Positions 17,171 to 32,408 of a stretch of 32,865 nt of DNA are shown piece by piece. The translations under genes were made by a program, and so were the position numbers. Position 1 is the stretch's first letter, and each line of letters starts with the position of its first letter. The DNA comes from Rhodospirillales bacterium. GTDB lineage: Bacteria > Pseudomonadota > Alphaproteobacteria > Rhodospirillales > Magnetovibrionaceae. Location: assembly GCA_024653965.1 (NCBI GenBank), contig JANLGW010000127.1:1-32865 (forward strand), written 5' to 3'. The notes beneath the pieces were generated by a model. The model was not told where the DNA came from, made no database searches, and saw only the letters and a list, made by a program, of their open reading frames with translations.

Positions 17171-17214
17171 TTTGCCATAAAACCGGGATCAATTGGCATT
17201 TGGTACCTCTTAAC

Positions 17215-17248
17215 CCCATATCCGGCGCCCATATCCGGCGATGGATAT
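17215..17248. repeat. 13-bp tandem duplication plus inverted repeat in the chvI leader
   Basis: CCCATATCCGGCG occurs twice without gap (17215-17227, 17228-17240). The second copy also forms an inverted repeat ATATCC-GGCGAT-GGATAT (17231-17236 and 17243-17248). The repeat lies 30-63 bases upstream of the chosen chvI start and downstream of the candidate -10. It may be a regulator site or an RNA stem. Confidence 0.5.
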
Positions 17249-17277
17249 TCGTTAATCAGTTCATGGATCCAACCACC

Positions 17278-17961
17278 ATGCCTTACAGCATTGCATTGGT
17301 CGACGACGACCGCAACATCCTGACCTCCGTTTCCATGACCCTGGAAGCCGAGGGGTTCACCGTGCGCGCCTACAAAGATGGTGACGAAGCGTTACGCGAA
17401 ATCACTCGTCACCCGCCGGATTTGGCAGTTCTCGACATCAAAATGCCGCGCATGGACGGTATGGAGTTATTGGCCGAACTGCGCAAGCGCAGCGATCTGC
17501 CGATCATTTTCCTTACCTCCAAGGACGATGAGTTGGACGAGGCCATGGGCCTGCGCATGGGCGCCGACGACTACATCAAAAAGCCGTTTTCCCAACGCCT
17601 GTTGCTGGAACGCATTCGCGCGGTGCTGCGGCGCAAAGACCCGCAATCCACCCAGGCCGAGATCGTGCAGCGCGGCAACCTGATGCTCGACGCCTCGCGC
17701 CACATGTGTACCTGGAAAGGCCAGCACGTCAATTTGACGGTGACCGAATTTCTGCTGATCCAGGCGCTGGCGCGCGCGCCCGGTCACGTCAAAAGTCGCG
17801 ACCAATTAATCGATGCGGCCTATGGCGAGCATATCTATGTCGACGACCGCACCATCGACAGCCACATCAAACGCCTGCGCCGCAAGTTCCGTGAAACGGA
17901 CGACGCCTTTTCAGCCATCGAAACGCTGTACGGTGTCGGCTATCGTTATTTGGAAGAGTGA
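17278..17961 (+). CDS. chvI: two-component response regulator ChvI (OmpR family)
   Basis: 227-aa DNA-binding regulator. Receiver domain (1-120): acidic pair VDDDRN, phospho-acceptor Asp53 in [12 protein letters not shown], Thr in IFLTSKDD and Lys in DYIKKPFS. OmpR-type winged helix follows (about 130-227: [25 protein letters not shown] ... [23 protein letters not shown]). ChvI-type proteins control acid response, envelope and exopolysaccharide genes and central carbon genes in alphaproteobacteria. The frame is open from 17200; I chose ATG 17278 because [11 protein letters not shown] is the normal receiver start, though ATG 17263 (five residues longer) is possible. The kinase gene follows after 15 bases. 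Confidence 0.93.
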
Positions 17962-17976
17962 TTTATTCTTGTTTTC

Positions 17977-19638
17977 ATGAGCACCCAGCCGCCCGCGCCA
18001 AAACCCACGTTGCACGATCACGAGCGACTGATGTCGCCGTTGACGCGCCGTATCTTGGCGGTGAACCTGTTGGCGCCTGCGTTATTGCTGATCGGCACGT
18101 TTTACTTAGGCGAATACCGCCGTTCGCTGGTCACCGCCGAACTGTCCTCGCTGCGCACGCACGGGGAAATCTTCGCCGTCGCCTTGGGCGAAAGCGCGGT
18201 ATCGCCCGCCGGTGAAAACCTGATGCCCGAACTGGCCAGCCAGATCGTGCGCCGCCTAGCATTCACCGCCGATACCCGAGCGCGCCTGTTCGCCGTCAAC
18301 GGCATGTTGGTCGCCGATTCCCGCGCCTTGCTGGAACCGGGTGGCGAGATCGTTGAAGCCGAATCCTTAGCCCCACCCGCCGCAAAACCGGCTCCGGAAA
18401 CTGTCGCGGACAGCAAAAGCCTGCTCAACAAATTGTTCGCCTTGCTCGACGTCATTTATTTCTGGCTGCCCGGCGTGGAGGAATATCCGCTTTACCATGA
18501 AAACATCGACCAACATGCCGAAGACTACCGCGAAGTCATGGGCGCGATGGAAGGCGATATCTGGGTGGCGCGCCGTTCCATGCCCGACGGCACGCTGATT
18601 TTATCGGTGGCGCTGCCGGTAACGCGCTACAAACAAACGCTGGGCGTCTTGATGCTGTCCAAAACGTCCGCCGACATCAACGACGCCATGTTCGAGGTGC
18701 GCAAGGCCACCTTACAGGTTTTTGCCGCAACGCTGATCTTCACCGTGCTGGTATCTCTTTATTTGGGCGGCACCATCGCCCGGCCCATTCGCAACTTAAG
18801 CCGCGCCGCCGAACGGGTGCGCAAGGGTCGTCATCGCGAACACACCATCCCCAAAATGACCGCACGCACGGACGAAATCGGCGAATTGGCGCTGGCTCTA
18901 AACGACATGACCGAAGGACTGTGGGCGCGCATGGATGCCATTGAAGCCTTTGCCGCCGACGTCAGTCACGAAATCAAAAACCCGCTGACCAGCCTCAAAA
19001 GCGCCGTGGAAACCGCAACCCGCCTAAAAGACCCCGACGCGCAGCGCAAACTGATGGCCGTAATCCTAGACGATGTGGAACGCTTAGACCGCCTGATCAC
19101 CGACATTTCCAACGCTTCCCGGCTGGACGCGGAGCTGTCGCGCGCCGAACCAAAACCCGTGAACTTAAGCGCCATGCTCACCACCATCGCCGACATTCAT
19201 ACCGCCAGCTTGAGCGAAAATGCACCGACGCTAAGCATCGCCGCACCGGCCGAAAGCGAAGGTTCACTGATGGTCAGCGGCATCGCAGACCGCCTGGTGC
19301 AGGTGCTGCGCAATCTTATCTCCAATGCACAGTCGTTCAGCCCCCAAACGCCTGATGCCGCCATTCGCATCACCGCCGGGCGCGAGGGCGCTTGGGTAGT
19401 GATCACCGTTGAAGACGATGGCCCCGGCATCCCCGAGGGCAAGTTTGAGGCCATTTTCAACCGCTTTTATACCGAACGCCCCCAAGCAGAAGAGTTTGGC
19501 CGCCATTCCGGCTTAGGGCTGGCCATTTCCAAACAAATCGTTGAGGCCCACGGCGGCACGATCATCGCCGAAAACGCCAAAACCGAAGACGGCGCGGTTA
19601 CGGGCGCACGATTTACGGTACGGTTGCCGGCGGCTTAA
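17977..19638 (+). CDS. chvG: sensor histidine kinase ChvG
   Basis: 553-aa inner-membrane kinase, partner of ChvI. TM1 at about 26-46, a periplasmic domain of some 200 residues, TM2 at about 246-268, HAMP linker, then HisKA with His331 in DVSHEIKNPLTSLKSA and a complete ATPase domain: N box LISNAQSFSP, G1 DDGPGIPEGKF, F box FNRFYTERP, G2 HSGLGLAISKQ. The periplasmic segment includes an Ala/Pro-rich linker (EAESLAPPAAKPAPETV) before the wall-side region, where the family is held by the inhibitor ExoR in rhizobia; no ExoR is seen here. All catalytic elements are intact, in contrast to the kinase after ahcY. Confidence 0.93.
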   Translation: MSTQPPAPKPTLHDHERLMSPLTRRILAVNLLAPALLLIGTFYLGEYRRSLVTAELSSLRTHGEIFAVALGESAVSPAGENLMPELASQIVRRLAFTADTRARLFAVNGMLVADSRALLEPGGEIVEAESLAPPAAKPAPETVADSKSLLNKLFALLDVIYFWLPGVEEYPLYHENIDQHAEDYREVMGAMEGDIWVARRSMPDGTLILSVALPVTRYKQTLGVLMLSKTSADINDAMFEVRKATLQVFAATLIFTVLVSLYLGGTIARPIRNLSRAAERVRKGRHREHTIPKMTARTDEIGELALALNDMTEGLWARMDAIEAFAADVSHEIKNPLTSLKSAVETATRLKDPDAQRKLMAVILDDVERLDRLITDISNASRLDAELSRAEPKPVNLSAMLTTIADIHTASLSENAPTLSIAAPAESEGSLMVSGIADRLVQVLRNLISNAQSFSPQTPDAAIRITAGREGAWVVITVEDDGPGIPEGKFEAIFNRFYTERPQAEEFGRHSGLGLAISKQIVEAHGGTIIAENAKTEDGAVTGARFTVRLPAA

Positions 19639-19663
19639 ATACACACTCAGAACACATCGTTTC

Positions 19664-19692
19664 TTGACGCTCATACCATAAGTGCGTATTGT
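19664..19692 (+). promoter_or_regulatory. promoter of hicAB
   Basis: TTGACG (19664-19669), exactly 17 bases, TATTGT (19687-19692). It lies right after the chvG stop, showing that hicAB has its own start of transcription, about 75 bases before the hicA ATG. Confidence 0.55.
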
Positions 19693-19699
19693 GCACGCA
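19683..19699. promoter_or_regulatory. candidate HicB operator TGCGT-N7-ACGCA
   Basis: Inverted repeat TGCGT (19683-19687) and ACGCA (19695-19699) centred on the hicAB -10. HicB proteins with a DNA-binding tail repress their own promoter, and the position is right for that. Confidence 0.45.
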
Positions 19700-19772
19700 T
19701 GCATTGAAGCGCCCTGCGGCAGTGGAGCATGAACCGAAAATTGGGCTGACCACGCGCCCTGGGAGTTTGTGC

Positions 19773-19961
19773 ATGAAGAGTTTAGATGTCCTCCGATGCT
19801 TATATGCCGATGGCTGGATTGAAGTGAAACAACGCGGTTCCCACGTCCAATTGAAACACCCCAGCAAGCCAGGACGTGTGACCGTCCCGCATCCGAAACG
19901 GGATTTGCCGATGGGAACGCTGAAAAGCATCGAAAAACAAAGCGGCGTCAAACTGACGTAA
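19773..19961 (+). CDS. hicA: HicA mRNA interferase toxin
   Basis: 62-aa dsRBD-fold ribonuclease toxin that cleaves mRNA when HicB is depleted. The core is visible: VLRCLYADGWIEVKQRGSH with catalytic His24 in the GSH motif, then VTVPHPKRDLPMGTLKSIEKQ. The frame is open upstream to 19689, but those 28 residues do not belong to the family; ATG 19773 has GGGAG 7 bases before it and yields the typical size. HicB follows after 17 bases. The pair sits between chvG and hprK, which are usually adjacent, so it looks like an insertion. Confidence 0.92.
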   Translation: MKSLDVLRCLYADGWIEVKQRGSHVQLKHPSKPGRVTVPHPKRDLPMGTLKSIEKQSGVKLT

Positions 19962-19978
19962 CGAGGAAGACAACACCT

Positions 19979-20431
19979 ATGCTTCGATATTATCCAGCAG
20001 TGATCCATAAAGACCCGGACAGCGATTATGGTGTGTCGTTCCCGGATTTCCCCGGCTGCGTCAGCGCAGGAAAGAGTCAATCGGAGGCCCTAGTGATGGC
20101 CAAAGAAGCGCTGATCCTTCACATCGAAGGATTGATCGAAGATCACGAAGCAATCCCCGATCCGTCCCCCATCGACCATGTGCAAAAAACCACCCTAACG
20201 GAACGTGGCGTCACGATTGTAACCTTAATCGAAGCCGCTCTGCCCGGCCCCGCCAAGCGCGTCAATATCACCGTTGAAGAATCCCTGTTGGATGAAATCG
20301 ACGCTTTGGCCGCATCCGAAGGCATGAGCCGCTCGGCCTTCCTCGCCAACGCCGCCCGCGAAAAAATGGAATTGATGCTGTTGCGCCGCATGGAAGCGGT
20401 GCGCAAGCAGCACAAGTCCGACGCGGCGTAA
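19979..20431 (+). CDS. hicB: HicB antitoxin
   Basis: 150 aa. Partial RNase H-like N-domain (about 1-70: YYPAVIHKDPDSDYGVSFPDFPGC, SEALVMAKEALILHIEGL) that binds HicA, followed by a ribbon-helix-helix DNA-binding domain (about 92-130: KRVNITVEESLLDEIDALAAS, MSRSAFLANAAREKM). This is the longer HicB form that can bind its operator. GAGGAAG precedes the ATG at good spacing. The 49 bases after its stop lead straight to hprK, so read-through could place the PTS genes partly under the hicAB promoter. Confidence 0.93.
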   Translation: MLRYYPAVIHKDPDSDYGVSFPDFPGCVSAGKSQSEALVMAKEALILHIEGLIEDHEAIPDPSPIDHVQKTTLTERGVTIVTLIEAALPGPAKRVNITVEESLLDEIDALAASEGMSRSAFLANAAREKMELMLLRRMEAVRKQHKSDAA

Positions 20432-20480
20432 CTCTTTTTCCCCCATTGACTCAAGCACGCAGGCGTTTCACGCTAAGGCC

Positions 20481-20915
20481 ATGGAACGCATTCACGCCAC
20501 CACGGTTGCGCTTGCCGGAAATGCCGTGCTGTTGCGCGGCCCGTCGGGTTGCGGCAAATCCGATCTGGCGCTGCGCCTGATCGATGAAGGATGGGATCTG
20601 GTTAGTGACGACTACACCGAAATTCTCATCGATGATGACGTGCTTTGCGCCCGCGCGCCCAAAAACATCCAAGGCCTGATCGAGGTGCGCGGCATCGGCA
20701 TCGTGCGCATCGGCGGTATCGCGCAAGCCCGCGTCAAGGCTGTGTTTGATTTGCTACCGCTCAGCGAAATTGAGCGTTTGCCGGGCCCCGCGAGCGCGTT
20801 TTTGCTGGGCCATCCGGTGGCGCGATTTTGCCTGCACGGCCTCGATGCGTCGGCCCCCGCCAAAGTGCGCCTCGCGCTCAAAGCCCACGCCGAAAACCTG
20901 TTTCATCACGGTTGA
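20481..20915 (+). CDS. hprK: HPr kinase/phosphorylase, short alphaproteobacterial form
   Basis: 144 aa. Only the C-terminal catalytic domain of HprK is present, as is normal in alphaproteobacteria (Firmicute HprK is about 310 aa). It phosphorylates HPr on Ser46 with ATP and can reverse this with phosphate. Walker A GPSGCGKSD at 20-28, the acidic SDDYTE segment, and the HprK signature IQGLIEVRGIGIVRIG. The N-terminus starts at the first strand of the domain, so nothing is missing. Its target, HPr with Ser46, is encoded two genes downstream. It is separated from chvG by hicAB. Confidence 0.95.
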   Translation: MERIHATTVALAGNAVLLRGPSGCGKSDLALRLIDEGWDLVSDDYTEILIDDDVLCARAPKNIQGLIEVRGIGIVRIGGIAQARVKAVFDLLPLSEIERLPGPASAFLLGHPVARFCLHGLDASAPAKVRLALKAHAENLFHHG

Positions 20916-20926
20916 GCCCCGCCACC

Positions 20927-21883
20927 ATGCCCCCCCAAACATCCGCCCCTCAAGACTCCCGTCAAGTCATCTTGGTTACCGGCATGTCCGGCGCGGGCAA
21001 AACCACCGTACTCAAAGCATTTGAGGATTTAGGCTTCGAAGCACTGGACAATGTGCCGCTTTATCTGTTGGGGCGCGTCGTAGAAGCCGATGGCGATAGC
21101 GATGCAGGCGGAACATCCGCCACCCGCCCGCTGGCCATCGGCGTGGATATCCGCACCCGCGACTTTGATGCCGAGAGCTTGATCGCCGCCGTCACGGGCT
21201 TAAGTGCACGCGCCACACTCAGCGTAAAAGTATTATTTGTCGATTGCGGCGACGAAGAACTTCTGGCGCGTTACACCGCCACCCGCCACCGCCACCCGCT
21301 GGCTGCCGATCGTCCGGTGCTCGACGGCGTGCGCCTAGAGCGCCAATTGCTTGCGCCCCTGCTTTCCGCCGCCGACGTTCACTTAGACACCACCGGGCGC
21401 ACGCCTTATGACGTTAAGGATTTTCTGGCGCAGACGTTTAGCGCAAACAAAGAGGCCCATCACCGCGACATGGCGGTGTTTGTAACCTCATTTTCATACC
21501 GCCACGGACTGCCGCGCGACGCCGATTTGGTGTTCGATGTTCGCTTTTTGCGAAATCCCCATTATGATCCCAACTTAAGGCCGCTAACCGGCCAAAACGA
21601 AGCCGTGCAACGCTTCATCGCCGAAGACCCAGGATTTAACGATTTTATGGAACGTTTGATGGGGTTGCTCACCCCCCTGGTTCCACGCTATGCCGAAGAA
21701 GGCAAATCGTACTTGACCATCGCGGTGGGCTGCACGGGGGGTAAACATCGCTCGGTTTTCGTCGCCGAAAGACTGGCGGCGTGGCTGAACCAAAATTTGA
21801 CGCGTGTGCATCTGACTCACCGGGATATGCCGGAAACGTCAGAGCCAAACACGCCGAGGGAAGGAAACGGAACAACGTCATGA
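20927..21883 (+). CDS. rapZ: RapZ-type nucleotide-binding protein
   Basis: 318 aa. Walker A GMSGAGKTTVLK (about 19-30), FEALDNVPLYLL, VLFVDCGDEELLARYTATRHRHPL, and the C-terminal TIAVGCTGGKHRSVFVAERLA, all hallmarks of the RapZ/YvcJ family. In enterobacteria RapZ binds GlcN6P and directs small RNAs that control glucosamine-6-phosphate synthase; in other groups its role is less clear. Located in PTS operons throughout proteobacteria. The frame is open 33 codons further upstream, overlapping hprK; I chose ATG 20927, 11 bases after the hprK stop. The stop overlaps the next start (ATGA). Confidence 0.93.
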   Translation: MPPQTSAPQDSRQVILVTGMSGAGKTTVLKAFEDLGFEALDNVPLYLLGRVVEADGDSDAGGTSATRPLAIGVDIRTRDFDAESLIAAVTGLSARATLSVKVLFVDCGDEELLARYTATRHRHPLAADRPVLDGVRLERQLLAPLLSAADVHLDTTGRTPYDVKDFLAQTFSANKEAHHRDMAVFVTSFSYRHGLPRDADLVFDVRFLRNPHYDPNLRPLTGQNEAVQRFIAEDPGFNDFMERLMGLLTPLVPRYAEEGKSYLTIAVGCTGGKHRSVFVAERLAAWLNQNLTRVHLTHRDMPETSEPNTPREGNGTTS

Positions 21884-22281
21884 TCGGCATCGTGCTTGTC
21901 ACCCATGGCCGCTTGGCTGAGGAATTCGTCGCCGCCACAGAACACGTGGTCGGCCCCCAAAGCGCCATCGCAACAGTCTGCATCGGCCCTGACGACGACA
22001 TGGAAGAGCGTCGCGGGCAAATCCTCGAATGCATCGCCAAAGTCGATGACGGTTCTGGCGTAATCTTGCTGACCGACATGTTCGGCGGCACGCCGTCGAA
22101 CCTAGCCATCAGCGTAATCGAAAAAGCTAACGTCGAAGTCATCGCCGGCGTCAATCTGCCGATGCTGATCAAATTGGCCAGCGTGCGCGCGAGCGGCACT
22201 CTCATCAGCGCTGCGACCCAGGCCCAAGATGCCGGACGAAAATACATCAACATCGCGTCCGAACTTTTAGGCGCAAATTAA
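21880..22281 (+). CDS. manX: PTS EIIA component, mannose family
   Basis: 133-aa cytosolic EIIA domain. Phospho-accepting His9 in VLVTHGRLAEEF; second signature LTDMFGGTPSNLA; closing region VIAGVNLPMLIKLA. It accepts phosphate from HPr. No EIIB, EIIC or EIID gene follows, so it is probably a regulatory output rather than part of sugar import. Start ATG overlaps the rapZ stop as ATGA, with GGAAGGAAA upstream, so translation is coupled. The frame extends upstream inside rapZ, but that part is the rapZ gene in another frame. Confidence 0.93.
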   Translation: MIGIVLVTHGRLAEEFVAATEHVVGPQSAIATVCIGPDDDMEERRGQILECIAKVDDGSGVILLTDMFGGTPSNLAISVIEKANVEVIAGVNLPMLIKLASVRASGTLISAATQAQDAGRKYINIASELLGAN

Positions 22282-22300
22282 TTCTAGGGCCTAATTTTAT

Positions 22301-22570
22301 ATGGAGCAGCGCACCCTCACCATCCGCAATCAGCGCGGCCTACACGCCCGTGCAGCGTCAAAATTCGTCAAGCTGGCGGGGCAGTTCGACGCCGACATCA
22401 TCGTCACCAAAGACGGTCAGTCCGTATCGGGGCGCTCCATCATGGGGCTGATGATGCTCGCGGCAGGCATTAATACCACCATCGCCGTGACCTGCGAGGG
22501 CGCCGATGCCCAAGGCGCTATGACCGCCCTGGAAAATCTGATTGATAATAAATTCGGCGAGGAGTGCTGA
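22301..22570 (+). CDS. ptsH: phosphocarrier protein HPr
   Basis: 89 aa, normal length. His15 in NQRGLHARAAS takes phosphate from enzyme I. Ser46 in VSGRSIMGLMML is the site used by HprK, so both control inputs are present. Intact secondary motif AAGINTTIAVTCEG. The gene follows manX after 19 bases and its 3' end carries the GAGGAG used to start ptsI. Confidence 0.97.
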   Translation: MEQRTLTIRNQRGLHARAASKFVKLAGQFDADIIVTKDGQSVSGRSIMGLMMLAAGINTTIAVTCEGADAQGAMTALENLIDNKFGEEC

Positions 22571-22572
22571 GC

Positions 22573-24333
22573 ATGAACGCCGCAATCAAAGAAATCATCA
22601 TTACCGGTTTGGGTGTATCGCCCGGCATTGCAGTCGGCCGCGTCCACGTGCGCGAAACCGGGTCCATCGCCGTTCCCGAATACGCCATTAAGGCCAGCGA
22701 AGTTGAAGATGAACAGCAACGCCTTGCCGATGCGTTGCGCATCTCGCAGCGCCAGATCGGACGATTGAAGGCCAAGTCCGGATCCATGCCCCCCGCAGCG
22801 GCGGAGGAAATCGGCTTTTTGCTGGATGCCTATGAACAGATGCTGGGTGATTCCCGGTTGGTGCGCGGTGCGTTTCACCGCATCGAATCTGAACGCATCA
22901 ACGCCGAGGCCGCCGTGCAAGCGGAAATCAACGCCATTACCGAAGGCTTCGCTGCGCTGGACGATACCTATATCGCCGCACGCATGGATGACATTCGCGA
23001 AGTGGCCGATCGCATCATTCGCGCGCTCACCAAATCGCACGTCAGGCCGCTCAACACGGTACCGAAAGGCTCGGTGATCATTTCCGAAGAAATGACCCCC
23101 GCCGATGCCGCGCAACTCACGCCGAAACGCGTGCTCGGTTTTGCCGCCGTCCTGGGCGGCGCGCAGGGCCACACCGCGATCATGGCGCGCGCTTTGGGCC
23201 TGCCTGCGGTGCTGGGCGCACAGGGCCTCATGCACCAAGTACGATCCGGCGACACCGTGATCATCGACGGCACCCAGGGCCGCGTCATCGTCAATCCATC
23301 AACCGCAACCCTCGCGGCTTACGAAATCAAACAGGCCGAAGATCGCCGCATCATCGGTCGTCTGGCGCGCCTGCGCCGCCAACCGTCCGTTACCCGCGAC
23401 GGCATCGACATCTCGCTCAGCTGCAACGTGGAACTGCCCATCGAAATGCCCGGCGTATTAAGCGCCGGCGCGGTGTCGATCGGCTTGCTACGCTCTGAAT
23501 TTATGTTCATGAACCGCGAAGACATCCCCAGCGAAGATGAACAATTCCATATCCTAAAAGACATCGTCGAAAATATGGACGGCCGCACGGTAACCGTCCG
23601 CACCCTCGATATCGGCGGTGAAAAACTGGCGCAGTCGCTCACCCAAGACATCGGTGAAAGCGCACAAAGCGCGCTGGGCGTGCGCGGCATCCGCCTGTCG
23701 CTCAAAAAACCGGAATTGATGGAAGGGCAAATCGCCGCCATCTTGCGCGCGGGCGCGTTCGGCCCGGTGCGCATCTTGCTGCCCATGGTATCCACCGTGC
23801 GCGAAGTCATCCGCGCCCGCGACATCATCAAACGCGTGGCGGCGCGGTTAAAACGCAAAAAAGTGACCATCGCCGACCCGTTGCCGCCCGTAGGTGTCAT
23901 GATCGAGGTGCCCTCCGCCGCCCTGACCGCCGACGCCATGGCGGCGGTGTCGGATTTCTTCGCCGTCGGCTCGAACGATCTGACCATGTACACCATGGCG
24001 GTGGACCGCACCGACGAACAGGTGGCCGAGCTTTACAATCCTCTGCATCCGTCGGTCTTGCGCCTGATCCAGTTCACCGCCGAAAGTGCGCTGCGCAACC
24101 GCATCCCCATCTCGATTTGCGGTGAAATGGCAGGCGATCCGCGCTTTACCGCCCTGATTTTAGGGCTCGGCATCCGCGAACTTTCCATGAGCGCCCACGC
24201 CCTTGGCCCCGTCAAACAGCGGGTGCGCGAAATCGAAATGGCTGCCGCGCAAAACCGCACCCACTTCATCATGAGCCAGACCGATCCGGGCCGCATCGCC
24301 ATGTTGTTGGATGATTTCAATAGTTTGGTTTAA
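22573..24333 (+). CDS. ptsI: PEP-protein phosphotransferase, enzyme I
   Basis: 586 aa. Starts the phosphorelay by taking phosphate from PEP. N-terminal HPr-binding domain, then the active His in GGAQGHTAIMARALGLPA (the residues before His are QG rather than the textbook TS), then the PEP-binding barrel: RTLDIGGEK, GVMIEVPSAALTADAM, FFAVGSNDLTMYTMAVDR and ICGEMAGDPRF. There is no N-terminal GAF domain, so it is sugar-type EI in form and not EI-Ntr. The ATG at 22573 has GAGGAG 8 bases before it; the upstream GTG at 22564 would overlap ptsH. No terminator follows it before ahcY. Confidence 0.96.
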   Translation: MNAAIKEIIITGLGVSPGIAVGRVHVRETGSIAVPEYAIKASEVEDEQQRLADALRISQRQIGRLKAKSGSMPPAAAEEIGFLLDAYEQMLGDSRLVRGAFHRIESERINAEAAVQAEINAITEGFAALDDTYIAARMDDIREVADRIIRALTKSHVRPLNTVPKGSVIISEEMTPADAAQLTPKRVLGFAAVLGGAQGHTAIMARALGLPAVLGAQGLMHQVRSGDTVIIDGTQGRVIVNPSTATLAAYEIKQAEDRRIIGRLARLRRQPSVTRDGIDISLSCNVELPIEMPGVLSAGAVSIGLLRSEFMFMNREDIPSEDEQFHILKDIVENMDGRTVTVRTLDIGGEKLAQSLTQDIGESAQSALGVRGIRLSLKKPELMEGQIAAILRAGAFGPVRILLPMVSTVREVIRARDIIKRVAARLKRKKVTIADPLPPVGVMIEVPSAALTADAMAAVSDFFAVGSNDLTMYTMAVDRTDEQVAELYNPLHPSVLRLIQFTAESALRNRIPISICGEMAGDPRFTALILGLGIRELSMSAHALGPVKQRVREIEMAAAQNRTHFIMSQTDPGRIAMLLDDFNSLV

Positions 24334-24386: not shown

Positions 24387-24464
24387 CGGGGCTGGTAAAC
24401 CCTGGTCCACGATTTATTGAAAAATCCCCGAATTTTAGCGATTCGCAGCGTAGGAGACACGTCC

Positions 24465-25871
<1,407 letters not shown>

Positions 25872-26011: not shown

Positions 26012-28306
26012 ATGAACGGTTTGGACTTATCTGCGAACCTGATGAATACAGCGCCTTTATTGGCGCTGGTGATGGCTTTGGCCGCGCTGGCGCTGGTGGT
26101 CGTGGCGCTGGGTCAGCACGCCAAGCTCAACAAGCTGCGTTCGGACCACAAACGCCTGCAATCGGACACAGAGATCAGCCATGAAATCCTCGCCACCGCG
26201 CCGGACGGGTTGTTCTTGTGGGTGGTGGCGAACAATTCCGAGGCCTGCTCGCGCCGCTTGGCCGTGCTGCTGGGTTTATCCGACGGCGTGCGTTCAAGCT
26301 TTCGCACGGTGATGGATTGTTTTACCGGCGATGACGCCAAAACCTTAACCGGACACGCCCACAAGCTGCGCACCCAAGGTTCGCCGTTCGAATGCGTCGT
26401 CACCACCAAAAACGGCCAACGCCGCCTATTGGTGGTCGGCGTACGCGCGGGCGCGGGGGAGCACCGCGACGAAGCCCTGGCCGACGTCATCTGGATGCGC
26501 GACGTTTCCGACTTGGCCCCGCCTGCCGAAGGCGCGAACATCTCGGCGCACGACATTATCGAAGCGTTGCCTCTGCCCGCGTGGTTGCGCGGCGGCAAGC
26601 TGGGCGTGCAGGCGGCGAACCTGATGGCGCGCACCGTCGCCGCGCCCGAAGCCGCGCGCGAATTGGCCGCGCGCGCCCAAATGACGGGGCAGGCCATCCA
26701 CGAACGGCACCTGCTCACCGCTCAGGACGGCGCGCCACGGCTGCTCGACATTACCGAAGCGCCCCTACCCGGTGGCGGCACGCTGGGCATCGCGCAAGAC
26801 CTAACCCGCACGGAAGAAACCGAAAGCGCGTTTGCGCGCCACATCCAGGCGCAAAATCAGGTGATGGAAACGCTGGCCACCGCCATCGCGATTTTCGACG
26901 GCGACCAACGTTTGAGTTTTTACAATTCCGCTTATACCCAATTGTGGGATTTAAACCCGTTATGGCTGGCCGACAGGCCCGGATTTGCCGACGTATTGGA
27001 GCGCTTGCGCGAACAGCGCCGCCTGCCCGAAGTCGCCAACTTCAAGGCCTTTAAGGCCGAACAGACTGGTCAATTCGGTATCTTGGACGGGCCGCTGGAA
27101 ACCCAAATGCATCTGCCCGACGGCACCGCGCTGCGCGTCGTCACCAGCCCCCATCCGCTGGGCGGTTTGGTATTCGCCTATGAAGATGTCACCGGCCATT
27201 TGGACTTGGAACGCAATTACAAAACGCTGACCGCCGTGCAGCGCGCAACGCTGGACAACCTTTATGAAGGTGTGTGCGTGTTTGGCGCCGATGGACGCAT
27301 GCAACTGCACAATCCATCCTTTGCCCGCATCTGGAAGCTATCCGGCCAGGAAAACCCGAACGGCATGCACATCCAAACCTTCGTCGAACACATCAAGGCC
27401 TTGATCCAGCGCGACGAAAACGCCAAGCCGTTGGACAAAGGCCATCTGGTGGCCAAATTCATGAGCCGCGAGGCGGGCCGCGGGCGGCTCGATCTGGTCA
27501 ACGGCACCGTGCTCGACTACGCCAAGGTTCCGCTGCCCGATGGCGCGGTATTGCTCAGCTATCTCGACGTCACCGATAGCGCGCGGGTGGAAAACGCTTT
27601 GATGGAACGCGCCCACGCTATGGCGGAAGCCAACGTCTTGAAATCAGAATTCATGGCGGGCGTCAGTCACGAAATTCGCACGCCCCTGAACGCCATCGTG
27701 GGCTTCGCATCCATCCTCAGCGACAACTATTTCGGCGAAATGAACGCCCGCCAAAAAGAGTATTCGCGCGGCATTCAAGAAAGCGCCGAGGAACTGATCG
27801 GCATCATCGACAACATGCTGGATTTAGCCTCGGTCGAAGCCGGACTGATGACGCTGGAATTGGACACGGTGGACGTCAACCGTCTGTTGTTGACGGCGAT
27901 GAACTTGGTGCGCGAACGCGCCCGACGCAAAAACGTCGATATCGAGTTTGACTCGCCTGCCGATATCGGCTGGGTGGTTGCCGACGAAAAACGCTTAAAA
28001 CAAGTGCTGTTCAACCTGCTTTCTACCGCCGTAAGCAATACGCCGCCGGGCAGCGATGTATTGTTGACCGCGCGGCGCGAAGCCAGCGACATCGTATTTC
28101 GCGTGACCGACGGCGGCAGCGGCTTGAAGGAGGATGAAGTCCCCGCAGGTCTGGCGCTGATCGCGCGTTTCATCGAACTGCACAACGGCGTGGTGGAGAT
28201 CACCAACCGCCCCGGTCGCGGCACCACCGTCATCTGCCGCTTGCCCGCCGAAACGAGCCGCGACGGTGCCGCGCAACACGATCTGTTTTCGGGCTTTTAC
28301 GAGTAA
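26012..28306 (+). CDS. multi-PAS sensor histidine kinase with degenerate ATPase domain
   Basis: 764 aa. One N-terminal membrane helix (about 14-34), several PAS-like regions (about 55-170, 285-400, 410-535), then HisKA with His553 in GVSHEIRTPLNAIVGFA. The ATP-binding domain is eroded. The N box reads NLLSTAVSNTPPGS, so the essential Mg-binding Asn is Thr672. G1 is DGGSG. The F box and ATP lid are missing, with DGGSG leading within a dozen residues into GLALIARFIELHNG where a GLGL motif is expected. The final strands (ITNRPGRGTTVICRLP) remain. It may act as a phosphatase, scaffold or allosteric partner rather than a kinase. A kinase gene between ahcY and tsaE is, as I recall, common in this class. 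ATG 26042 is an alternative start. Confidence 0.88.
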   Translation: MNGLDLSANLMNTAPLLALVMALAALALVVVALGQHAKLNKLRSDHKRLQSDTEISHEILATAPDGLFLWVVANNSEACSRRLAVLLGLSDGVRSSFRTVMDCFTGDDAKTLTGHAHKLRTQGSPFECVVTTKNGQRRLLVVGVRAGAGEHRDEALADVIWMRDVSDLAPPAEGANISAHDIIEALPLPAWLRGGKLGVQAANLMARTVAAPEAARELAARAQMTGQAIHERHLLTAQDGAPRLLDITEAPLPGGGTLGIAQDLTRTEETESAFARHIQAQNQVMETLATAIAIFDGDQRLSFYNSAYTQLWDLNPLWLADRPGFADVLERLREQRRLPEVANFKAFKAEQTGQFGILDGPLETQMHLPDGTALRVVTSPHPLGGLVFAYEDVTGHLDLERNYKTLTAVQRATLDNLYEGVCVFGADGRMQLHNPSFARIWKLSGQENPNGMHIQTFVEHIKALIQRDENAKPLDKGHLVAKFMSREAGRGRLDLVNGTVLDYAKVPLPDGAVLLSYLDVTDSARVENALMERAHAMAEANVLKSEFMAGVSHEIRTPLNAIVGFASILSDNYFGEMNARQKEYSRGIQESAEELIGIIDNMLDLASVEAGLMTLELDTVDVNRLLLTAMNLVRERARRKNVDIEFDSPADIGWVVADEKRLKQVLFNLLSTAVSNTPPGSDVLLTARREASDIVFRVTDGGSGLKEDEVPAGLALIARFIELHNGVVEITNRPGRGTTVICRLPAETSRDGAAQHDLFSGFYE

Positions 28307-28309
28307 CGT

Positions 28310-28999
28310 TTACGGCCTTGCCGTAGTGCGGCAATCGAGCGTCGCGTAATATTGCGCCAACATATCCACCTCTTCGATACTTAAACGCGCGGCTTGGCGT
28401 TCCATGATCGGATGGGTGCGCCAGAGTTCGCTTTCACGAGACGCCGCGCCATAGGCGTTTTCTCGAATAATCAACAGTTGGCGGCGGAGATAACCACGCT
28501 GTTGGCCGGCAATGTTCGGCACATTACCCGCCGAACTAACCCCGACTTCGCCATGACAGACATCACAACGCTGCGCGACCTGCGGCTTGACCGGCTGAGA
28601 AATCGGCGCAGCCTCGGTTTTACCCCCGTCGCAGGGCAACTGCGCCAAGGTGGCGGCGATGCGTGAAACTTCACCATCGCTTAAAGCCGCGGTCACATGC
28701 GCCATTAAGGGATCGAAGCGGGATGCCAGTGGCTTAGCGCCGTTTTCCGGCACGCTTGAAATCTTGTCTTGCGATTGCCTGAATACACTCATCTGCCGAA
28801 TAAGATAATCGACCTTTTGTCCGGCAAGGGTCGGGTACGTCGGAACACGGCTGACGCCATTCTCACCGTGACAAGTGAAACAGGTTTCCATGGCCGCCAC
28901 CGGCGCGGGCGCGGCAGGCTGTTGCGCCGTTTGGGCGATCGCATGACTGCTCGCCGCCAGCACCCCCATCATCGTAAGCGCCCTTAATATCTTGTGCAT
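28310..28999 (-). CDS. periplasmic diheme cytochrome c (c4-like)
   Basis: 229 aa. Sec signal peptide (MHKILRALTMMGVLAASSHAIA, cleavage likely after AIA). Two class I cytochrome domains, each with a heme site: CFTCHGENG and CDVCHGEVG, each followed by the P-x-x-AGQ segment (YPTLAGQ, VPNIAGQ) and by a Met for the sixth ligand. This is the pattern of cytochrome c4/c553-type electron carriers. It follows the reductase gene by 3 bases, so the two are co-transcribed, although one product is periplasmic and the other cytosolic. Its electron partners are not visible. Confidence 0.92.
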   Translation of the reverse strand: MHKILRALTMMGVLAASSHAIAQTAQQPAAPAPVAAMETCFTCHGENGVSRVPTYPTLAGQKVDYLIRQMSVFRQSQDKISSVPENGAKPLASRFDPLMAHVTAALSDGEVSRIAATLAQLPCDGGKTEAAPISQPVKPQVAQRCDVCHGEVGVSSAGNVPNIAGQQRGYLRRQLLIIRENAYGAASRESELWRTHPIMERQAARLSIEEVDMLAQYYATLDCRTTARP

Positions 29000-29002
29000 G
29001 GT

Positions 29003-30040
29003 CTATTTCACGCTGCCTGGTACGCCCGACGATGTGGAATGTTCAAAGTGATAAGCCGCATCGGGGTGCAGGTGATGGCGCGCGTTATGCGCTGCCTGGG
29101 CGGCCTCGGCAAAGCCCATCAAGATCAACTTCAGTTTGCCCGGATAGGTAATGATATCGCCCGCGCCGAACACGCCTTTGACATTGCTTTCCATGGTGCC
29201 CGGATTGACAGCGATGTGATGGTGTTCCAGCCCCAAACCCCATTCGGCAATCGGGCCAATGTTTTGCGTCAGGCCAAAAAACGGCAGCAATACGTCGGCC
29301 TCGAGGGTGCGTTGTTTGCCGTCCAAATCCGCCACGACGACGGCTTCGAGTTTATCGCGGCTGCCCTGTAACGCCGCCAACTGATACGGCACCACCAGTT
29401 CAATTTTGCCCGCCGCCGTCAAAGTTTCCATACGTTCGACACTTTCCGGTGCGGCGCGGAATTTGGGCCGACGATGCACCACCTGCACGCTGGCCGCCAA
29501 CTCAGCCAGGGAAATCGCCCAATCCACCGCCGAATCGCCGCCGCCCGCGATGACCACCTTTTTGCCTTTAAAATCGTCGCGGCGTTTAACCAGATAGTTG
29601 ACGCCCCGGCCCGGACCCATGCCTTCAAAATCCTCGATGCCGTCCATCGGCGGGCGGTTGGGGCCAAACGCGCCGACACCGGCGGCAATGATCACCGCAC
29701 CGGCATCGATTGCGACGCCTTTGGAGGTGATCAGCTTGAACCGCCCCCCGTTCAAAGACTGCAAAGCCATCACCTGCTGCCCTAAATGATAGCTTGGCCG
29801 AAAGGGTGCGGCCTGAGCCTCCAGCATACTGACCAACTCCCCGGCCAAAATGGTCGGATGTCCGGGAATGTCATAAATGGGCTTTTCCGGGTATAATGCC
29901 GATAACTGGCCGCCCACTTCGTCCAAGGCGTCGATTACGTGGCACGACATCTTCATCATGCCACACTGAAAGACGGCGAACAGGCCCACTGGGCCAGCGC
30001 CGATAATCGCGACATCGGTGGTTATAGGCGTGTTGGGCAT
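29003..30040 (-). CDS. ferredoxin/flavodoxin-NADP+ reductase, thioredoxin-reductase-like type
   Basis: 345-aa flavoprotein of the YumC type: two Rossmann domains as in thioredoxin reductase but no redox CxxC. FAD loop AIIGAGPVGLFAVFQCG, then GGQLSALYPEKPIYDIPGHP, NADPH loop VVIAGGGDSAVDWA, and FGAGDIITYPGKLKLI. In known members it moves electrons between NADPH and ferredoxin or flavodoxin. The C-terminal tail (about 20 residues after AAQAAHNARHHL) has the aromatic/His elements typical of the family. First gene of the unit with the diheme cytochrome; divergent from tsaE across 127 bases. Confidence 0.92.
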   Translation of the reverse strand: MPNTPITTDVAIIGAGPVGLFAVFQCGMMKMSCHVIDALDEVGGQLSALYPEKPIYDIPGHPTILAGELVSMLEAQAAPFRPSYHLGQQVMALQSLNGGRFKLITSKGVAIDAGAVIIAAGVGAFGPNRPPMDGIEDFEGMGPGRGVNYLVKRRDDFKGKKVVIAGGGDSAVDWAISLAELAASVQVVHRRPKFRAAPESVERMETLTAAGKIELVVPYQLAALQGSRDKLEAVVVADLDGKQRTLEADVLLPFFGLTQNIGPIAEWGLGLEHHHIAVNPGTMESNVKGVFGAGDIITYPGKLKLILMGFAEAAQAAHNARHHLHPDAAYHFEHSTSSGVPGSVK

Positions 30041-30167: not shown

Positions 30168-30647
30168 ATGACCGCGCAGCATGAAACCATCACCATCGAA
30201 CTTGCCGGGCTGGCGGCCACGCGGCGGCTAGCTAGGCGGCTGGCCCGCATGGCCAAACCGGGCGACGTGCTCGCGCTGTCGGGCGATTTGGGCGCGGGAA
30301 AAACCGAATTTGCCCGCGCTTTCATCCGCACCCTGACCGATGCCGACGAAGATGTGCCCAGCCCCACCTTTACCCTGGTGCAAACCTATGCCGGCAAAAG
30401 TGGCGAGATTTGGCATTTCGACCTGTATCGTCTGACCAACCCCGACGAGGCGCTGGAGCTGGGCATCGAAGACGCCTTTCACGACGCCATTTCCCTGATT
30501 GAATGGCCCGAACGGCTGGGGCCGCACCTGCCGCGAGGGCGCTTGGGCATCCATCTCGCCGTCACCAAAGGCCGCAACCACCGCTCCGCCGTGCTAACCC
30601 CGCATGCAGATTGGACCGAACGCCTGCGAGACTGCGGTCATGGATAA
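30168..30647 (+). CDS. tsaE: tRNA t6A biosynthesis ATPase TsaE
   Basis: 159 aa. P-loop GDLGAGKTEFARAF, the VPSPTFTLVQTY segment with the conserved Ser/Thr, and IWHFDLYRL (the H-x-D-x-Y-R motif), then ELGIEDAF and LIEWPERLG. It works with TsaB and TsaD to put threonylcarbamoyl on A37 of ANN-decoding tRNAs. First of four genes with overlapping ends; the amgK ATG lies 8 bases inside it. Confidence 0.96.
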   Translation: MTAQHETITIELAGLAATRRLARRLARMAKPGDVLALSGDLGAGKTEFARAFIRTLTDADEDVPSPTFTLVQTYAGKSGEIWHFDLYRLTNPDEALELGIEDAFHDAISLIEWPERLGPHLPRGRLGIHLAVTKGRNHRSAVLTPHADWTERLRDCGHG

Positions 30648-31686
30648 TCGCAAAATGGACCGCAATAGCCTGCGTCAGGCATTTCTCAACCGCGTGGGCT
30701 GGGGTTCGGCATTGCCCGAGCCGTTAAAAAGCGACGCATCGTTTCGCCGCTATTTTCGCTTAAGCCTCGGCAATCAGCGGGTGCTGTTGATGGATGCCGC
30801 GCCCGAATTGGGTGAGGACGTGCGCCCGTTTGCCCGGGTCGACCGCCACCTGATCGAACTGGAACTCAGCGCCCCGGAGATTCTCGCCGAAGACGTCGAG
30901 CATGGTTTTTTGCTGCTCGAAGATTTCGGCGACGCCACCTTCACCAATTTGTTGGCCCAGGGCCAAGACGAAGCCGATTTGTATGCGTTGGCCACCGACA
31001 CCCTGATCGCCCTGCACACCATGGAAGACATCCGCACCGCGCCCGACTGGCTGCCGCCTTACGACGATGAACGCCTATTGGCCGAGGCCTCCCTATTGCC
31101 CGATTGGTTCATGGCGGCCCAGGGCATCCCCGTGACCACGGCAGCGCGCGCAGCTTATGGCAACATATGGCTGGAACTGTTCCATCACGTGCATGCCGGG
31201 CCGCGCACCTTGGTGCTGCGCGATTTTCACGTCGACAATCTGATGCGCCTCGAAGGCCGCAGCGGCGTGCGCGCGTGTGGACTGCTCGATTTTCAAGACG
31301 CGGTGGCGGGCCATCCGGCCTACGATCTGATGAGCCTGCTCGAAGACGCCCGGCGCGACATCGACTTAAGCCTGCAAGCCGCCATGAAGGATCGCTATTT
31401 CGATGCCTTAAGCCTCACCGACAGCCGTGATTTTGAAACCGCCTACGCCATCTTGGGCGCGCAACGCCACGCCAAGGTTATCGGTATCTTCACCCGCTTG
31501 GATCGGCGCGACGGCAAACCGATTTATTTGAAACACATCCACCGGCTGTGGCAACTTTTAGAACGAAGCCTCAAGCACCCGGCGCTGGCCGACATGCGGG
31601 CGTGGATCGACAAACACATTCCCGCACACCAACGCTGCGCCCCGGGCGCCGCCCATCTGCACCGCCCGACGGAACCCACCTCATGA
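30640..31686 (+). CDS. amgK: AmgK-type anomeric sugar kinase (phosphotransferase fold)
   Basis: 348 aa, aminoglycoside-phosphotransferase fold. The substrate loop KSDASFRRYFRL, the hinge LLLEDFGDATFTNLL, the catalytic LRDFHVDNLMRL with Asp, and LLDFQDAVAGHPAYDLMSLL with the metal-binding Asp are typical of AmgK, which phosphorylates MurNAc/GlcNAc at the anomeric carbon. With MurU it makes UDP-MurNAc and bypasses de novo synthesis, giving lower fosfomycin sensitivity in known cases. ATG 30640 overlaps tsaE; ATG 30655 is an alternative. Stop overlaps the next start as ATGA. Confidence 0.9.
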   Translation: MDNRKMDRNSLRQAFLNRVGWGSALPEPLKSDASFRRYFRLSLGNQRVLLMDAAPELGEDVRPFARVDRHLIELELSAPEILAEDVEHGFLLLEDFGDATFTNLLAQGQDEADLYALATDTLIALHTMEDIRTAPDWLPPYDDERLLAEASLLPDWFMAAQGIPVTTAARAAYGNIWLELFHHVHAGPRTLVLRDFHVDNLMRLEGRSGVRACGLLDFQDAVAGHPAYDLMSLLEDARRDIDLSLQAAMKDRYFDALSLTDSRDFETAYAILGAQRHAKVIGIFTRLDRRDGKPIYLKHIHRLWQLLERSLKHPALADMRAWIDKHIPAHQRCAPGAAHLHRPTEPTS

Positions 31687-32408
31687 TTGTAACGCATGCT
31701 ATGGTTTTGGCTGCGGGCCTGGGCACGCGCATGAGGCCGCTGACGCTGACGACGCCCAAACCGCTGGTCAATGTGGCAGGGCGCACGCTGCTCGACTGGG
31801 CGCTTGATAACTTGAGCACGACGGGCGTCGAACATGCGGTCGTCAACTTGCATCATCTGGGCGCACAGATTAAGGCGCACCTTAACCATCGCACCTACCC
31901 GCAGGTAACCACCCTCTACGAAGATCCCCTGCTGGAAACCGGCGGCGGCATACAAAACGCTTTACCCCTGTTGGGCGATGCGCCGTTTTTTGTCATCAAT
32001 TCCGATGGGCTATGGCTGGACGACGACGCCAACGCATTGGCCCTTCGCCACATGGCGGATAGGTGGGACGACGCAGTAATGGATGCGCTGCTGCTGCTGC
32101 ACGATCCCGTCAAAGCGTTCGGCTACGACGGCCCCGGCGACTTTACGATAGGTTCCGACGGACGATTGGCGCGGCGCACCGAAGGTGCTGCGGATGCAAA
32201 AGTCTTTACCGGTGTGCAACTGCTGCACCCGCGTTTGTTCAAAGATGCGCCGGGCGGAATCTATTCGCTCAACGTGCTTTACAACCAAGCCCTCGGCAAT
32301 GGACGGCTTTTTGGCCTCACCCATGCGGGGGAGTGGCACCACGTCGGAACGCCCGAAGCGCTTGAGACAAGCGACCGCCACCTGCGCAACCGTGGATTTG
32401 GCAGATGA
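31683..32408 (+). CDS. murU: MurNAc-1-phosphate uridylyltransferase MurU
   Basis: 241-aa nucleotidyltransferase. The signature AMVLAAGLGTRMRPLTLTTPKPLVNVAG binds UTP; later elements are LLETGGGIQNALPLLG, FFVINSDGLW with the metal Asp, and EWHHVGTPEAL near the end. Being next to amgK supports the MurU reading over other UTP-sugar enzymes. The frame is open 45 codons upstream inside amgK, but ATG 31683 gives the normal start MIVTHAMVLAAG. The stop overlaps the addB start. Confidence 0.92.
   Translation: MIVTHAMVLAAGLGTRMRPLTLTTPKPLVNVAGRTLLDWALDNLSTTGVEHAVVNLHHLGAQIKAHLNHRTYPQVTTLYEDPLLETGGGIQNALPLLGDAPFFVINSDGLWLDDDANALALRHMADRWDDAVMDALLLLHDPVKAFGYDGPGDFTIGSDGRLARRTEGAADAKVFTGVQLLHPRLFKDAPGGIYSLNVLYNQALGNGRLFGLTHAGEWHHVGTPEALETSDRHLRNRGFGR

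Follow-up and report, generated by a model that had tools for sequence, protein, structure and literature searches.

The window, that is, the whole stretch of 32,865 nucleotides analysed here with positions counted from its first letter, carries a single open frame on the plus strand (26012..28306) that begins with ATG, runs for 764 codons and contains no internal stops, in agreement with a first-pass annotation of this sequence that had described the frame as intact. The features discussed below are as follows:

24417..25871, plus strand: ahcY, upstream syntenic marker (Pfam PF05221)
26012..28306, plus strand: gene assigned as the divL orthologue, 764 aa (best solved-structure match Caulobacter DivL, 4q20; synteny)
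26021..26197, plus strand: N-terminal helix with a hydrophobic stretch, residues 4-62 (structure model)
26198..26800, plus strand: two N-terminal alpha/beta domains, approximately residues 63-165 and 179-263 (secondary structure of the model)
26867..27202, plus strand: PAS_7 domain, residues 286-397 (Pfam PF12860)
27227..27571, plus strand: PAS domain, approximately residues 406-520 (PF12860 in three stretches; PF08448, 414-460; PF00989, 411-458; model)
27614..27856, plus strand: DHp (HisKA) domain, residues 535-615 (Pfam PF00512)
27668..27670, plus strand: codon CAC for His553 at the acceptor position, Tyr in most DivL sequences (alignment)
27857..28252, plus strand: CA (HATPase_c-like) domain, residues 616-747 (Pfam PF02518, 90 residues over 109 profile positions; model)
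28025..28027, plus strand: codon ACC for Thr672 at the position of the N-box Asn (alignment)
28109..28123, plus strand: intact G1 box DGGSG, D700-G704 (alignment)
28124..28147, plus strand: 8-residue remnant LKEDEVPA replacing the F box, the ATP lid and the first half of G2 (alignment)
28148..28159, plus strand: GLAL, the remaining half of G2 (alignment)
30168..30647, plus strand: tsaE, downstream syntenic marker (TIGR00150 over cut-off)

According to Pfam and an AlphaFold model, the protein has multiple PAS domains followed by HisKA and HATPase_c domains. The N-terminal helix is a probable membrane anchor, and the two alpha/beta domains that follow it may be PAS-like, as suggested by the secondary structure of the model. 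The first-pass annotation had suggested a possible link of the PAS regions to redox or metabolite sensing, which we found to be unsupported: they are of the family's usual kind and domain scans indicate no ligand. With a mean pLDDT of 84.1 and a pTM of 0.35, the folds of the individual domains in the model can be trusted but not their arrangement; the fold of the CA domain is predicted to be complete even though it has no lid. Among the 25 NCBIfam models listed, of 72 for the protein, none scores above its curated cut-off.

On sequence similarity and gene order we assign this gene as the divL orthologue itself. Of the sequences in the PDB, that of Caulobacter DivL (4q20) matches best (E 3.7e-36 and 1.6e-35 in two comparisons), and the same protein is the top structural match of the model (Z 21.3, rmsd 3.8 over 213 aligned residues), with other kinases within 1 Z. 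DivL had been invoked in the first-pass annotation as an analogy; the idea of a DivL-type regulator that probably works with another kinase stands, but the identity of the gene was missed. The same annotation placed the gene between ahcY and tsaE. Both do flank it, ahcY directly upstream, but two minus-strand genes, encoding a cytochrome c and a flavoprotein, lie between divL and tsaE. The order ahcY, divL, tsaE is also found in Sinorhizobium and Sphingomonas, and a table in PMC9491525 gives the run in Brucella as ahcY, one small gene, divL and tsaE. A same-strand ahcY upstream and/or tsaE downstream of divL is present in 188 of the 272 loci that we surveyed; many of the remaining 84 have short flanks, and several with flanks of 6 kb (some of them Magnetospirillum-type) lack both markers nearby. 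The closest named relative among the best 80 of 511 matches is from a Magnetovibrio MAG (L069, 72%), whose sequence is identical to that of a member of the window's own family (G009) over the 200 residues compared.

As the gene is divL, its partners can be predicted, with DivK as input and CckA as output, and both are present in the window genome: DivK has its best match to 1m5t (E 2.5e-56), and CckA, the N-terminus of which runs off its contig, to 5idj and 5idm (E 2e-67 and 2.5e-37). The genome also encodes CtrA (NF045991 above cut-off) and ChpT (best matches 4qpj and 4fmt), the latter in a gene separate from divL. In an alignment read by eye, R556, F565 and A606 of the window DHp domain correspond to R553, Y562 and A601 of Caulobacter DivL, so that among these DivK-contact residues R556 and A606 are kept and F565 is in place of Tyr. 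The window protein is predicted from its orthology and these contact residues to bind DivK~P and regulate CckA.

Alignment bears out the first-pass reading of the kinase boxes (His553, Thr672, F box and lid absent), with the refinement that GLAL is the second half of G2. His553 lies within HEIRTPL, at the place of the phosphoacceptor His in the H box of active HisKA kinases. The N box reads NLLSTAV, compared with NLLSNAV or similar in most relatives, and G1 is separated from the GL of G2 by 8 residues, compared with 23-35 in 218 of 259 DivL sequences. The G-L-G-L-x-L of relatives aligns with P-A-G-L-A-L, and since GLAL thus matches the second half of G2, the first Gly-Leu has been lost together with the lid. 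Set against the features of active HisKA kinases, the acceptor His is present and the N-box Asn, F box, ATP lid and full G2 are absent. A sequencing or assembly error is excluded because 13 other family members, from other genomes, have a spacer of 8-9 residues. We also compared the protein with 17 other kinases of the same genome. The gap from G1 to G2 is 20-24 residues in all 12 with both boxes detected (the pattern missed one box in the other five), and 13 of the 17 matched the N-box pattern with Asn. Judged against these kinases, the box losses exceed chance. A working kinase is very probably excluded by the sequence, and the missing boxes support the earlier designation of a probable pseudokinase.

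The 272 DivL loci yielded 259 distinct sequences, drawn from 141 of 156 genomes of the class and 51 of 53 of the window's order in which a DivL-level match was found, and from the best 80 of 511 related loci; as the latter were taken by closeness, the counts of acceptor types represent an uneven sample. Within the order, a DivL-level match (E 1e-80 or better) was found in 53 of 60 genomes by hand count. PMC8116508 reports divL in 27-36% of Rhodospirillales, a figure that is not directly comparable as orders and samples differ.

The acceptor residue in the 259 sequences is Tyr in 173, His in 32, Ala in 17, Phe in 14, Asn in 5, Gln in 4 and Arg in 3, with rarer occurrences of Cys, Thr and Gly (2 each) and of Val, Ser, Met and Lys (1 each), and a gap in one. 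The N-box Asn is present in 222. PMC4211667 describes Tyr in place of His across DivL homologues, M. magneticum with its Ala being the sole exception, and credits Caulobacter DivL with all of the H, N, G1, F and G2 boxes save for the acceptor residue. Our survey shows that Tyr is neither general nor defining in DivL and that the ATP boxes are not universal, whereas the Ala group is borne out; the window protein, with His553, itself fails the published Tyr mark. On FastTree trees built with the acceptor column removed, His and other acceptors were exchanged at least 19 times. By pattern, 16 of the 259 sequences, which is half of the 32 that bear His, combine His with every ATP box, and these might be working kinases. 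The possibility raised in the first-pass annotation, that orthologues would reveal the window protein as an ordinary form within a family of active kinases, thus has some basis in DivL at large, but this combination is absent from all 14 lid-less proteins of the window's family. We also considered whether His is paired with an intact ATP domain, as in surviving true kinases, and found no association on independent pairs. Spacers of 8-9 residues outside the family occur in Magnetospirillum fulvum and M. molischianum (L099 and L100; acceptor Ala, N-box Thr, spacer 8), where the lid was apparently lost independently. In six further DivLs, truncation or degeneration has left a spacer of at most 13 residues.

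Within the window's family the lid is absent in all 14 members read outside genus g2, with a spacer of 8 residues in 13 and of 9 in L015; the g2 representative (L022) has His, the N-box Asn and a 30-residue spacer. His is kept in 8 of the 14 lid-less members, which belong to genera g1 and g4 and all have HEIRTPL intact. In the sister genus g5, all 5 members read have Asn as acceptor residue and the same lid-less CA domain, and genus g3 has Gln (n=1). Two members of the window's own genus (L010 and L021) still possess the N-box Asn, from which it follows that the lid was lost before this residue. The ratio of CA to DHp amino-acid distances was calculated with the lid left out, in three identity bands. 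It is 1.39-1.46 in the lid-less family (13 members, L015 omitted), and DivLs that possess the lid and the Asn span 1.32-2.01. Pairwise dN in the family lies between 0.03 and 0.30, and dS ranges from 0.73 up to saturation. The lid-less family shows no relaxed constraint on its ATP domain, and the distance ratio and low dN uphold the earlier opinion that this is not a decaying gene. The family has an unusual, lineage-wide combination for DivL, in which two genera have kept His and lost the ATP grip, and so reverses the usual pattern: most DivLs have another residue in place of His and keep the N-box Asn.

DivK is strongly conserved in most of the genomes that encode these proteins. Among 17 other family genomes, 11 encode a DivK that is 93-98% identical to that of the window genome and two more, of the same genus, one that is 87 and 85% identical; in two, both incomplete or fragmented, the best match is only 64 and 48% identical and perhaps represents another regulator. 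No DivK was found in the remaining two of the 17, G003 (59% complete) and G006 (99% complete), and in the DivL of G006 (L015, genus g3) the acceptor is Gln, R-A-P replaces R-T-P and G1 is broken. In genus g5, DivK is 93-95% identical in four of five genomes.

Across order and class genomes at least 90% complete, 130 of the 148 loci with DivK (E 1e-40 or better) have preserved the Arg-Thr-Pro motif (R-T-P), compared with 1 of the 19 without DivK (no match at 1e-28), a difference with a Fisher value of 2.5e-13 when kinship is ignored. This count leaves out 8 genomes with weak DivK matches (R-T-P in 6 of them), genomes of 20 handles that are less than 90% complete and one gapped locus. The exception is G195, a complete genome with no DivK match that keeps R-T-P and whose DivL sequence is that of L121 (G377). 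On a tree built without residues 550-562 there are 5-6 independent changes, and on average 3.7 of 5 supported pairs behave as expected with none opposite (sign test p 0.125). Absence of DivK thus accompanies loss of R-T-P, but the independent changes are few and the phylogenetic control is not significant. An acceptor of Tyr, His or Phe is found in 142 of 149 loci with DivK versus 10 of 19 without.

As a marker of DivK loss, however, loss of R-T-P failed. We examined 15 motif-changed genomes (those behind L082, L086, L088-L091, L093, L095-L101 and L123), which are mostly of the Ala-acceptor, Magnetospirillum type (acceptor Ala, Cys or Gln), and 11 of them have DivK (E 1.7e-56 or better, 73-86% identical); of the other four, G348 has it in two pieces and G346, G347 and G358 have weak matches only. 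Four genomes with R-S-P were divided, two having a DivK match (E 2.3e-41 and 3.0e-49) and two none. In the same comparison, 17 of 19 R-T-P-keeping genomes have DivK at E 1e-40 or better, one has a match at 1.8e-40, and G377 a partial one at 7.9e-24. Loss of whole DivL domains has been tied to loss of DivK in PMC2877005 and PMC9430884.

The window DivL probably reads DivK~P without catalysis and adjusts CckA accordingly, with the CA domain as a structural or docking module and His553 as docking surface. As the ATP site is gone, a protein that senses DivK~P and signals to CckA requires the fewest new assumptions. The protein would not autophosphorylate; DivK~P would dock onto its DHp helices, and this would be relayed to CckA as a conformational change by the emptied CA domain together with the PAS domains, whereupon CckA would toggle between kinase and phosphatase and set the level of CtrA~P. 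His553 may be kept as a piece of the DivK-docking surface, like the Tyr of most DivLs, without being required for phosphorylation. An acceptor His appears not to be needed, since most DivLs have Tyr, others have varied residues, and genus g5 combines Asn with a DivK that is mostly kept. Caulobacter DivL is a DivK~P-binding regulator of CckA (PMC4211667, PMC5361649), and PMC4211667 reports that binding goes via the DHp domain, that an ATP analogue is bound weakly (57 uM), that the protein has neither kinase nor DivK~P phosphatase activity, and that changes to R553 and A601 strongly affect binding and fitness, with a mild fitness effect of Y562A. Against this explanation we count the N-box Asn retained in L010 and L021, the small number of independent changes behind the DivK link, the failure of its converse and the R-T-P kept in G195 without DivK, and, with respect to the docking surface, the invariance of His in genera g1 and g4 (8/8), which is more than indifference to the residue requires.

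This invariance would be accommodated by an alternative that we nevertheless regard as unlikely, namely that DivL here gave up ATP and kept His in order to read DivK~P chemically via His553 and not by shape alone, His553 being an ATP-blind phosphoacceptor that takes a phosphoryl group from DivK~P or a CckA receiver by reverse transfer. An analogy is offered by DHp proteins of the ChpT or Spo0B kind, whose CA domain is dead. HEIRTPL has survived in g1 and g4 despite the loss of lid and F box, and the Y550H variant of Caulobacter DivL acquired phosphate when DivK~P and ATP were both supplied, back transfer not being formally excluded by the authors (PMC4211667); in the test without ATP described there, however, no significant phosphate accumulated. 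The Tyr of most DivLs and the Asn of g5, with its equally lid-less CA domain and mostly present DivK, also argue against a phosphoacceptor. Were it correct, DivL in the window's family would either drain phosphate or relay it between DivK and CckA.

Kinase-dead sensor kinases can act as phosphatases, and HEIRT is intact in the window protein. A phosphatase role had been among the proposals of the first-pass annotation; one directed at DivK~P or CckA through the E-x-x-T beside His553 is conceivable but improbable: the idea gained no positive support, and the same E-x-x-T is present in Caulobacter DivL, in which no DivK~P phosphatase activity was found when it was assayed with Y550H alongside (PMC4211667). 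It is more improbable still that the lid-less CA domain binds ATP weakly and phosphorylates His553 upon binding of DivK~P. The remaining His, G1 and part of G2, the N-box Asn of L010 and L021 in the same genus and the stimulation of Caulobacter Y550H DivL by DivK~P (PMC4211667) would fit such residual kinase activity, but the window protein has no F box, lid, first half of G2 or N-box Asn, and even Caulobacter DivL, with its motifs reportedly retained, has only the weak affinity for the ATP analogue given above. We give hardly any credence to early decay of a gene whose function is fading. The losses are indeed stepwise, with the lid followed in some members by the N-box Asn, but frames are open in the family members read, dN is low, the CA domain evolves no faster than in lid-bearing DivLs and DivK is strongly conserved in most family genomes.

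The window protein resembles Caulobacter crescentus DivL (4q20, PMC4211667) in its several PAS domains, DHp and CA domains, the equivalents of R553 and A601, the predicted lack of catalysis and the partners DivK and CckA; in contrast, the Caulobacter protein has Tyr550 and reportedly keeps its boxes. DivL of Sinorhizobium meliloti and Brucella abortus shares the neighbours ahcY and tsaE (for Brucella by the table in PMC9491525), although the Sinorhizobium protein has a Tyr acceptor and a lid. Short or degenerate DivLs of Rhodobacterales likewise have a reduced kinase core (PMC9430884, PMC2877005), and degenerated HK/CA domains are described in PMC9430884 for the long DivLs of the genera Oceanicella and Albimonas; there, however, the core was lost or degenerated after loss of DivK, whereas the window genome has DivK and the DHp domain is intact. 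RetS of Pseudomonas aeruginosa (7n0e, 6dk7) is structurally near the window model (Z 19.2), keeps its His and controls another kinase, GacS (PMC12189002), but belongs to another family with another partner. We had considered RetS as a lid-less precedent and dropped it because the solved chain has a spacer of normal length, about 30 residues between the G1 and G2 regions. ChrS_CA-fs of Corynebacterium glutamicum (PMC9491836) has a ruined CA domain and acts via a second kinase with its own His dispensable; this is a laboratory frameshift, in contrast to the natural, conserved family described here.

DivL is a much-studied pseudo-histidine-kinase, and the missing His has been taken as a mark of the family, which our survey indicates is not general. 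The DivL family is known; in the open-licence papers searched, PMC11500502, PMC3577659 and PMC4426382 among them, we found no report of a His-bearing DivL or, by name, of a lid-less one. Such proteins are natural separation-of-function variants, and DivLs with Tyr and lid, His and lid, His and no lid, and Asn and no lid bear on whether the DivK-to-CckA switch needs one half of the kinase core or the other.

The surroundings of divL have further features. The minus-strand genes at 28310-30040, between divL and tsaE, encode a cytochrome c (two Pfam stretches) and an FAD/NAD oxidoreductase. Of 14 family loci searched by tblastn, 12 have this cytochrome and 7 the flavoprotein, before which many of the loci end; neither was found in the two outside loci searched (L071 and L023). 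Upstream of ahcY, the region 17200-24333 encodes a response regulator and a sensor kinase together with a PEP-utilising enzyme, and a gene for a GTP-type PEP carboxykinase lies there on the minus strand. The region resembles the Sinorhizobium run of chvG, PTS genes, ahcY and divL. After tsaE, at 30604-32408, are genes related to AmgK and MurU of cell-wall sugar recycling, both scoring below the curated cut-offs.
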